In this document: positions 53,020 to 55,998 of the stretch, in pieces
Layout: each line of letters begins with the position of its first letter
Position numbering within the stretch: position 1 is the first letter of the stretch
From: Oscillospiraceae bacterium
GTDB taxonomy: Bacteria > Bacillota > Clostridia > Oscillospirales > Acutalibacteraceae
Assembly: GCA_015065765.1 (NCBI GenBank)
Contig: SVPP01000009.1
Location: 1-64,000, forward strand
Direction of reading: 5' to 3'
Length of the DNA stretch: 64,000 nucleotides
Made by a program: the position numbers and the translations under genes
The notes under the pieces: model-generated
What the model was told of the DNA's origin: nothing
Database searches by the model: none
Seen by the model: the letters and a program-made list of their open reading frames with translations, nothing else

Positions 53020-53048
53020 TTGACTTTTCTTTTATTATACAGTATAAT
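53020..53048 (+). promoter_or_regulatory. Promoter of the transporter leader
   Basis: TTGACT (53020-53025), 17 bases, TATAAT (53043-53048). Transcription would begin near 53055, 130 bases before the transporter ATG. Confidence 0.8.
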
Positions 53049-53068
53049 CAATTTTGTAATTCATAAAT

Positions 53069-53165
53069 GGTGGAGTCTGTCATAAAATGCAATAGCATTT
53101 TATTTATGAATATACGCATGGGAATACCCTTGCCATCATCTGAACTCCGCCGTGAGTTCTTTTTT
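53069..53165 (+). promoter_or_regulatory. Riboswitch-like three-way junction overlapping a terminator
   Basis: P1: GGTGGAGT (53069-53076) pairs with ACTCCGCC (53144-53151), eight bp with one G-U. Inside are P2, ATAAAATGC-AATA-GCATTTTAT (53082-53103), and P3, GCATGGG-AATA-CCCTTGC (53116-53133), joined by CTGT, TATGAATATAC and CATCATCTGA. The terminator GAACTC-CGCCGT-GAGTTC-TTTTTT (53142-53165) uses the same bases as the 3' strand of P1, so P1 and terminator exclude each other. If a ligand stabilises P1, expression would switch on. No known class is recognised; the gene suggests a cation ligand such as Na+ or Li+, as inference. Confidence 0.75.
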
Positions 53166-53184
53166 ATTATAAGGAGATGTTAAA

Positions 53185-54561
53185 ATGAGTCCGATTACAA
53201 TCACTGCGCTTGTCATCTTCGCCATAACATATGTGCTGATGATGGCTTTTCAGAAAATCCGACCTCACGTGGTAGTGGGTGCTGCATTGATTTTCGTCGT
53301 CCTGGGAGTTATCGCTTCCGTCAACCCATCCATTTTCGGAGAAGGTTTTTTCTTGCTCAATTCAGGAGAAAGCTACAACTATGGCTTTGCCCAGGCATTA
53401 CAGGAAACCGACTGGAACGTTATCATGATGATTGCGGGTACAATGGGTACTGTTTTCCTGTTCATCGAATCGAAAATGCCTCAACTTATGTCTGACGTGC
53501 TCATTTCAAAAATGCCCAATATGAAATGGGTTGTAGTTGCACTTTCACTTTTCGCAGGTATTGTTTCAGCCTTTGTTGACAACGTAGCTACAGTTCTTAT
53601 GATTGCCCCTGTTGCCCTTGCTTTCTGCAAAAAGGTCAACATTTCCCCTGTGCCTTCGATTATATGTATTGCTGTTTCCTCAAACCTTCAGGGTGCAGCA
53701 ACGCTTGTGGGTGACACAACATCAATCCTTCTTGCAAAACAGGCAGGACTTGATTTCTCAGACTTCTTTGTTCACGACGGTCACGTCGGCATGTTCTGGG
53801 TAGTCCAAGCAGGTGCCATCGTCAGCGCACTTATTATCCTCTTTATGTTCAGAAAAGACAAAAACAAGGTCGAATTCAGTGGCAGAACAAAAGTCGAGGA
53901 CAAATTCCCCACATTTCTCCTTGTAGGAACAGTAGTAGCACTTATCGCTGTTTCATTCATCCCCTACAAAGAAAACGCCCTTCCCGGCCAGTTCTACAAA
54001 CCCGGCATTACAAATGGTGTTATTTGTATTGCATTTTTCCTCATAGGTGTTATAAGAGAGCTCTTTGTTAAGAAAAACAAAACGGTCGTCAAAGAGGCTT
54101 TCAAGGAAATTGACTATTATTCAATTATACTGCTCACAGGTCTCTTCATTGTAATCGGCGGTATCAAAAACGCAGGTGTTATTGATGTTATCGGCAACGC
54201 AATCGCATCTCTCGGCTCAGGCTCACCATTTATTGTTTATACTGTCATCGTATGGATGAGCGTTCTTCTGTCAGCATTTATTGATAACATTCCTTATACA
54301 GCAACAATGCTTTCAATTGTTCCTGTTATCGCAGAGGGTGTAGGTATCGAGCCCACACTTCTTTACTATGGTCTTCTCTGCGGTGCAACCCTTGGCGGAA
54401 ACCTGACTCCTATAGGTGCAAGTGCAAACATTACAGGTATCGGTATCCTCAGAAAAGAAGGCTATGAAGTCAAATCCACTACCTTCATGAAATACGGTGT
54501 TCCATTTACAATGGCAGCAGTTACTACCGGTTACATAATGCTCTGGTTCATCTGGAAATAA
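53185..54561 (+). CDS. NhaD/ArsB-family ion transporter
   Basis: A 458-residue membrane protein of the ion-transporter superfamily (about 11-12 helices). The paired re-entrant motifs are clear: FVDNVATVLMIAPVALAF in the first repeat and FIDNIPYTATMLSIVPV in the second, with GGNLTPIGASANITGIG. These match NhaD-type Na+/H+ antiporters, ArsB and P-protein relatives; no arsenic genes accompany it, so Na+/H+ or anion transport is likelier. AAGGAG precedes ATG. It is alone behind the switch-like leader. Confidence 0.88.
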   Translation: MSPITITALVIFAITYVLMMAFQKIRPHVVVGAALIFVVLGVIASVNPSIFGEGFFLLNSGESYNYGFAQALQETDWNVIMMIAGTMGTVFLFIESKMPQLMSDVLISKMPNMKWVVVALSLFAGIVSAFVDNVATVLMIAPVALAFCKKVNISPVPSIICIAVSSNLQGAATLVGDTTSILLAKQAGLDFSDFFVHDGHVGMFWVVQAGAIVSALIILFMFRKDKNKVEFSGRTKVEDKFPTFLLVGTVVALIAVSFIPYKENALPGQFYKPGITNGVICIAFFLIGVIRELFVKKNKTVVKEAFKEIDYYSIILLTGLFIVIGGIKNAGVIDVIGNAIASLGSGSPFIVYTVIVWMSVLLSAFIDNIPYTATMLSIVPVIAEGVGIEPTLLYYGLLCGATLGGNLTPIGASANITGIGILRKEGYEVKSTTFMKYGVPFTMAAVTTGYIMLWFIWK

Positions 54562-54569
54562 AAGCTTCA

Positions 54570-54606
54570 AGAGAGTTAAGTTTACAGAAACTTAACTCTC
54601 TTTTTA
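54570..54606 (+). terminator. Terminator after the NhaD-type gene
   Basis: AGAGAGTTAAGTTT-ACAG-AAACTTAACTCTCT is a perfect 14-bp hairpin followed by TTTTATT. Confidence 0.92.
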
Positions 54607-54657: not shown

Positions 54658-55998
54658 ATGTTCGTAAAAGACAGGCAATTCTATAAATCTCTTTTTACAA
54701 TGACGCTGACAATTGCGTTGCAGAATGTGATAGTTTTCGGAGTTAACCTTGCAGACAGTATTATGCTTGGCAGATTTTCGGAGGAAGCATTGTCAGGCGT
54801 GGCTCTTGTAAATCAGATTCAGTTTTTACTGCAGATGGTTGTAATCGGCGTAGGTGCAGGAACACTGATTTTCTCTTCCCGTGCATGGGGTGCAAGAGAC
54901 TTGTCTACTGTTAAAAAGATTGCTAACATTGCAATGAAAACAGCTTTGGCACTGTCGCTTGTCATATTTATTCCTGTATTTCTTTTTCCCGAAAATGTTC
55001 TTTCACTTCTCTCAAATGAAAAGGACGTTGTTGCAGAAGGCGTAAAATATCTCAGAATAATCTGCTTTACATATCCTGTTTTTGCTGCAACAAACACACT
55101 TCTCTCAACGCTCAGAAGCGTTGAAACCGTTAAAATCGGATTTTACATTTCTCTATCAACCCTTGTAATAAATGTATGCCTTAACTATCTTCTGATTTTC
55201 GGCAATTTCGGATTTCCGCGTCTCGGTGCAGAAGGTGCAGCAATAGCAACAACAGTGGCAAGAATAGTTGAGCTTATCATCGTATGTCTTTATGTAAAAT
55301 TCGGTGACAAAAAGATCTGTCTCAGACTTTCTGATTACGGAAAAATGGATAAAGAATTATTCAGAGCATATCTGAAAAAAGGAACTCCTGTCCTCTGTTC
55401 AAACACTATGTGGGGACTTGCAATGGCGATACAGACTGCCATTTTAGGCCACCTGGGACAAGCTTCAATAACAGCAGGCAGTATAGCATCAACGGTTTTC
55501 CAGATAATCTCCGTTGTTGTTTACGGTTGTGCAAATGCATCAGGTGTTCTTGTAAGTAAAATGATAGGCGAAGGAATAGGAAAAAGCTGCAAGCCTTATG
55601 TTAAAACACTTCAGATAATATATGTTTCAATAGGCGTTGCAACCTCTCTGTTTCTTTTCCTTATAAAAGACCTGATATTATCATTTTACGATGTTTCAGC
55701 AGATGCAAAAGCTCTTACAACAAAGTTTCTGATAGTACTGTGCGTAACAGTAATCGGCACCTCTTACCAGATGTCATGCCTTACAGGAATTGTTGTTTCA
55801 GGCGGTGACACAACCTTCATCATGAAAAATGATTTCATTTTCATGTGGCTTATAGTCCTTCCCATGGCGGCAATTTTCGCTTTCGTGCTGAAGCTTCCCC
55901 CTGAATTTGTTTTCATAGCTCTGAAATCAGACCAGATACTTAAATGTCCTGTGGCATTCATAAGAACAAATCGTTATAAGTGGCTCAAAAAGCTTTAA
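54658..55998 (+). CDS. MATE-family efflux protein
   Basis: A 446-residue transporter with twelve helices in two homologous halves. VNLADSIMLGRFSEEALSGV in helix 1-2, GAGTLIFSSRAWGARD, and GAEGAAIATTVARIVE are MATE hallmarks. Members export cationic drugs in exchange for Na+ or H+. ATG at 54658 is favoured over GTG at 54649, which falls inside the GAGGGGTG site. Its stop overlaps the convergent birA stop by four bases. Confidence 0.93.
   Translation: MFVKDRQFYKSLFTMTLTIALQNVIVFGVNLADSIMLGRFSEEALSGVALVNQIQFLLQMVVIGVGAGTLIFSSRAWGARDLSTVKKIANIAMKTALALSLVIFIPVFLFPENVLSLLSNEKDVVAEGVKYLRIICFTYPVFAATNTLLSTLRSVETVKIGFYISLSTLVINVCLNYLLIFGNFGFPRLGAEGAAIATTVARIVELIIVCLYVKFGDKKICLRLSDYGKMDKELFRAYLKKGTPVLCSNTMWGLAMAIQTAILGHLGQASITAGSIASTVFQIISVVVYGCANASGVLVSKMIGEGIGKSCKPYVKTLQIIYVSIGVATSLFLFLIKDLILSFYDVSADAKALTTKFLIVLCVTVIGTSYQMSCLTGIVVSGGDTTFIMKNDFIFMWLIVLPMAAIFAFVLKLPPEFVFIALKSDQILKCPVAFIRTNRYKWLKKL

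Follow-up and report, generated by a model that had tools for sequence, protein, structure and literature searches.

A candidate riboswitch-like RNA class in the leaders of phosphate, pyrophosphate, ion-transport, and energy genes of gut Clostridia

An RNA element of ~60 nt is common to about 88 leaders, in which it occupies the 5′ end of the mRNA. It probably represents a new riboswitch-like class that acts as a transcription attenuator of phosphate, pyrophosphate, ion-transport, and energy genes. The element is built from two helices, a stem (P1) and a hairpin (P2), with a 15-nt bulge confined to the 5′ strand between them. With its many examples, compact aptamer, and nearly invariant 15-nt core, it is a well-supported orphan riboswitch candidate and suited to ligand screening. 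It places H+-pyrophosphatase, the PiT phosphate transporter, an Na/Pi symporter, TrkH, Mrp, a Na+-pump decarboxylase, and pyruvate kinase in a single regulon of uncultured gut Clostridia. The starting point was a leader at 53020–53185 of the window, the 64,000-nt stretch of DNA analyzed here, for which a riboswitch controlling an ion transporter had been predicted.

Leader and transporter gene in the window

The promoter, the ~130-nt leader, and the intrinsic terminator of the original prediction are all present, as is a Shine–Dalgarno sequence before the ATG at 53185 (Table 1). The onset of the element is at about 53056–53059, in agreement with the 53020–53185 span of the prediction. The single gene downstream, described as an NhaD/ArsB-type transporter, belongs to the CitMHS/ArsB/DASS superfamily (Pfam CitMHS, 1.2e-49; ArsB, 1.3e-11), and its product is only distantly related to the ArsB and VcINDY structures. 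As a terminator is located 3′ of the gene, the transporter is probably transcribed as a monocistronic unit. A MATE-family transporter gene is found at 54667–55998, beyond this strong terminator, and no copy of the element is present there.

The window leader folds with a z score of about −3.3 to −3.5 relative to shuffles. The three-way junction that had been proposed is its predicted minimum-energy fold, but such a fold alone does not imply a conserved aptamer, and the relatives keep other pairings, which do not support the junction as the aptamer. Of the three helices proposed for a covariation check, P2 was right, whereas P3 is a linker hairpin of nonconserved sequence. The 8-bp helix taken as the P1 stem of the aptamer (53069–53076/53144–53151) pairs the invariant bulge with the terminator 5′ arm and is thus the antiterminator. 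The true P1, which pairs 53059–53066 with 53104–53111, had been overlooked.

Table 1 Features of the leader and the regulated gene in the window
Feature	Position	Strand	Sequence or evidence
Sigma-70 promoter	53020..53048	+	−35 TTGACT, 17 nt, −10 TATAAT; 11/12 matches
P1, 5′ strand	53059..53066	+	AUUCAUAA; covariation in 35 and 57 leaders
15-nt one-sided bulge	53067..53081	+	AUGGUGGAGUCUGUC; nearly invariant; putative ligand-binding core and antiterminator strand
P2 hairpin	53082..53103	+	AUAAAAUGC-AAUA-GCAUUUUAU; 97% of cells paired; compensatory changes in 6/7 pairs
P1, 3′ strand	53104..53111	+	UUAUGAAU; covariation in 35 and 57 leaders
Linker hairpin	53116..53133	+	Predicted fold; sequence variable among relatives
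Intrinsic terminator	53142..53165	+	GAACTC-CGCCGT-GAGTTC-TTTTTT (GAACTC/GAGTTC, six T)
Antiterminator 3′ strand	53144..53151	+	ACUCCGCC; pairs with bulge nucleotides 53069–53076
Shine–Dalgarno	53171..53176	+	AAGGAG; read directly from the sequence
Regulated gene	53185..54561	+	458-aa transporter, CitMHS/ArsB/DASS (ion transporter) superfamily; Pfam
Terminator 3′ of the gene	54569..54602	+	

Conserved structure of the element

A protein search of genome contigs gave 49 loci, and a near-identical block with divergent flanks was present 5′ of the transporter gene in most of them. Together with a locus from a same-genus genome (L002) and the window itself, these provided 35 CitMHS-type leaders. 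In their alignment, P1 and P2 are stacked with no gap on the 3′ strand and are 91% paired, compared with only 39–44% in slid-register controls. They contain 90 double-change cells, whereas the shuffled mean was 28 and none of 500 shuffles reached the observed number. Among 57 diverse sequences, 88% of the cells are paired, compensatory changes occur in 14 of the 17 pairs, and the covariation score is 0.515, against 0.07–0.19 in slid controls. One sub-type of P2 opens with ACCG/CGGU in place of AUAG/CUAU, and the P2 of another leader (L098) contains ACAAAG/CUUUGU. The 5′ leaders therefore carry a covarying structured domain. The bulge follows the consensus (A/G)UGGUGGAGUCUGUC, the columns of which are invariant or more than 90% conserved in the 57 sequences from many families.

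Two leaders deviate at the bulge. One ortholog (L028:2805–2861) is missing exactly the 15 nt of the bulge, so that both stems form a perfect hairpin, and its terminator is retained; this may reflect either a genuine deletion or a collapsed assembly, and it is a useful mutant design. The other (L049:2722–2788) is the sole leader in which the bulge ends with GUCAGAC rather than GUCUGUC, a possible variant of specificity or of the expression platform.

Comparison with known RNA classes

No riboswitch family was found over the element when three divergent representatives were searched by cmscan against Rfam 15 (E ≤ 10). Relaxed thresholds gave only chance matches to sRNA, snoRNA, and miRNA families, and the only match of the window at the gathering thresholds was a tRNA. 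This comparison covers the 4227 families of Rfam, which published motifs that were never deposited could escape. The original suggestion that the leader lies outside the known cation switches (Na+-I, nhaA-I/II, and yybP-ykoY) and may form a new class is in agreement with these results. In the open literature searched, no phosphate, pyrophosphate, or K+ riboswitch, no hppA motif or motif tied to the target genes, and no RNA-level regulator of the K+-independent H+-pyrophosphatase was found. The element thus looks like a previously undescribed riboswitch-like RNA class. In 20 CitMHS-family loci that do not have the element, no replacement switch was found in Rfam.

The Na+-I (DUF1646) class resembles the element in its targets: it too acts at the level of transcription on ion-transport genes and energy genes, among them those for oxaloacetate decarboxylase, antiporters, and K+ transporters (PMC9337991). 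That paper describes Na+-I RNAs as two extended stems with conserved clusters at the P1 base and the P2 loop, and as ON switches that overlap the right terminator shoulder. The present element, in contrast, is one bulged stem that uses the left shoulder, and it does not match the Na+-I covariance model. The nhaA-I and nhaA-II (Li+/Na+-II) RNAs also precede cation antiporter genes, but neither was matched by the three representatives, and nhaA is not among the associated genes. The yybP-ykoY (Mn2+) RNA is likewise a leader of transporter genes; its covariance model was not matched, and no Mn2+-linked gene family is associated with the element. The c-di-AMP RNA (ydaO-yuaA) shares K+-transporter targets, but the present 60-nt hairpin is far smaller and has no Rfam match to it.

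Promoter, terminator, and antiterminator

A sigma-70-like promoter scoring at least 9/12 was found upstream of the element in 84 of 87 leaders, compared with 20% of shuffles, and the end of the −10 box is 13–21 nt from the bulge in 80 of those 84. The aptamer is therefore transcribed first. Intrinsic terminators follow the element in most of the homologous leaders, and the 5′ arm of the terminator can pair either with the bulge or with its own 3′ arm. The mutually exclusive structures of the original prediction are thus supported, and the expression platform competes for part of the aptamer. At least six contiguous pairs between the bulge and the terminator 5′ arm are possible in 74 of 85 leaders (mean 37 and maximum 50 in 500 shuffles), an aggregate that probably overstates independence because the leaders are mutually related. 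Tested leader by leader, the pairing is mostly nonsignificant (median z, −1.5; p < 0.05 in 25/85). The register also differs: pairing involves the GGUGGAG half of the bulge in the window and three other leaders (L036, L042, and L059) but the UCUGUC half in most others. Despite these shifts, and although the terminator-side partner also changes in sequence and in distance, the whole bulge is invariant, as would be expected if the unpaired bulge served a second function in binding.

We propose a mechanism in which P1 stacked on P2, together with the one-sided bulge, would constitute the aptamer. A small ligand is presumed to be bound directly by the RNA, with the bulge as the putative binding core. 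When the ligand is absent, the bulge would capture the 5′ arm of the terminator, and the gene would be read. When the ligand is present, the bulge would fold onto P1/P2 and leave the 5′ arm free, so that the terminator could form and transcription would stop. The leaders are thus likely controlled by attenuation, and ligand-dependent termination (OFF) is the probable polarity, since by the usual logic an antiterminator that uses the invariant core of the aptamer is incompatible with a bound ligand. The ON polarity of the original prediction is doubtful for the same reason. The reasoning parallels that for a c-di-AMP riboswitch, for which OFF was predicted from the pairing of the core with the left shoulder of the terminator (PMC9337991).

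An ON switch, in which the ligand stabilizes a pseudoknot of the bulge with the terminator arm as the antiterminator, is a somewhat unlikely alternative and the one nearest to the polarity of the original prediction. The terminator state without ligand is computed to be more stable than the nested antiterminator in most of the other leaders, by a median of 8.7 kcal/mol, so that antitermination must be kinetic, pseudoknotted, or ligand-stabilized, and the last of these would make it an ON switch. However, a distal partner that varies as described above is unlike a ligand-binding pseudoknot, and the antiterminated junction of the window (−27.9 kcal/mol) is already more stable than the aptamer with the terminator (−26.0 kcal/mol).

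Downstream genes and possible ligands

The leaders preceding a CitMHS-family transporter gene number 35. The first recognizable gene was typed for 53 distinct elements from genome searches, including that of the window, and the target families were verified with Pfam and NCBIfam. The most common first gene encodes a membrane (H+-)pyrophosphatase (22 elements), followed by PiT (13), TrkH (4), and pyruvate kinase (3). NptA, the oxaloacetate decarboxylase beta subunit (Oad-beta), MrpE, and a flippase-like LPG_synthase_TM gene were found once each, and the first gene was unassigned for six elements. The Mrp case is a complete antiporter operon, and TrkA follows TrkH. The element thus precedes several unrelated operons, of eight gene types besides CitMHS, and phosphate and ion energetics are common to these types only in part. 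The common chemistry may be that of phosphate (pyrophosphatase, PiT, and NptA), of Na+ or ion gradients (Oad, Mrp, NptA, TrkH, and perhaps CitMHS), or of energy charge (pyrophosphatase, pyruvate kinase, Oad, and Pi uptake).

In L077 and L080, the element and PiT, which starts ~650 nt downstream, are separated by an ORF that by eye resembles an IS200/IS605-type transposase. In L084, L172, and L082, an ORF resembling by eye an IS3-type transposase OrfA occupies the expected place of the target, and PiT may have been displaced. A C-terminal fragment of pyruvate kinase (L081, by eye) and a short fragment of pyrophosphatase (L085, BLAST) follow the element and read like remnants of targets. The LPG_synthase_TM gene (L096:1756–2856) has no clear tie to phosphate or ion transport.

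The pyrophosphatase subtype bears on the ligand. Membrane pyrophosphatases with Ala at position 12.46 are K+-dependent and those with Lys are K+-independent (PMC9408878, PMC10897367), and all characterized Na+-pumping members are K+-dependent (PMC9408878). The 13 sequences that cover this region all carry GNTVKA(V/I)TKGF, with Lys 12.46 and Thr 12.49, and Ala 12.46 is found in none. The enzymes are canonical members of the K+-independent group (GNTVKAVTKGF signature), and these residues predict that they pump H+ and respond to neither Na+ nor K+. Oad-beta, Mrp, and NptA had at first pointed to Na+ as the ligand, which this subtype makes less likely. As indirect evidence, the residues would favor Pi/PPi or an energy signal over Na+ or K+.

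Inorganic phosphate or pyrophosphate is our leading candidate for the ligand, although only a tentative one. TrkH, Mrp, Oad-beta, and pyruvate kinase fit phosphate alone poorly. The full reading, in which the class would sense inorganic phosphate (or pyrophosphate) and in response switch off the uptake of phosphate, proton pumping driven by PPi, and the linked energy genes, is speculative and on balance rather improbable. We know of no riboswitch class for phosphate or pyrophosphate. If the reading is true, this RNA would be the first of its kind as far as the literature searched shows, a polyanion that selectively binds a small oxyanion. Another energy metabolite, such as a nucleotide, is an unlikely ligand, and the same low probability is given to a compound outside these groups. 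An energy or cation ligand, if true, would make the element a new sensor of bacterial bioenergetics.

The cation ligand of the original prediction is weakened. That the RNA is another ion-responsive class sensing an alkali cation (Na+, or perhaps K+ or H+) is now considered unlikely, although the linked genes include the Mrp operon, the beta and gamma subunits of the Na+-pump decarboxylase, the NptA Na/Pi symporter, TrkH-TrkA, and the CitMHS/ArsB-type transporter, a range resembling that of the Na+-I class. The most common gene is the K+-independent pyrophosphatase and the second is PiT; no cation switch of Rfam was matched by the three representatives, and an OFF switch would turn down Na+ exporters just when Na+ is high.

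RNA-binding antiterminator proteins also recognize bulged stems with an invariant loop sequence, and the element would suit such a protein. A protein-binding attenuator, in which termination would be governed by a regulator bound to the bulge and P1/P2 rather than by direct ligand binding to the RNA, is nevertheless quite improbable, because no regulator gene is consistently found beside the loci and the targets are scattered across unrelated operons in nine families. Finally, the element could be an invariant protein-binding DNA operator just 3′ of the promoter, the RNA pairing being fortuitous. A repressor operator might explain the fixed distance from the −10 box, but both stems show compensatory changes, such as the replacement of AUAG/CUAU by ACCG/CGGU in P2, and the element is coupled to terminators, which makes this explanation highly implausible.

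Distribution of the element

A search of viral contigs with an exact 20-mer gave no match. A relaxed 18-mer gave 21 stretches without the fold, scoring only 18–21.5 bits with covariance model R2; they fall into two sequence types that recur in different contigs and were taken as chance matches. Four marginal covariance-model matches of 26–29 bits (L068, L094, L095, and L097) were dropped because the core was absent.

Covariance model R1 was run on 394 genomes of the same order; 28 contained the element, with 26 clear hits. R1 also detected it in two further genomes of the class. With R2, five families of the order had the element in 3/87, 10/63, 7/21, 9/160, and 13/318 genomes, and no other genome in a 398-genome sample of the phylum contained it. 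The E-values of the covariance models reached 1e-16. The range comprises seven families of one order and two families elsewhere in the class, nine in all. The named close relatives are MAGs labeled as "Clostridia," "Oscillospiraceae," and "Ruminococcaceae," many of them from the guts of ruminants and horses. Several genomes carry two or three copies of the element on different genes, such as G1647, in which TrkH, pyrophosphatase, and PiT each follow one.
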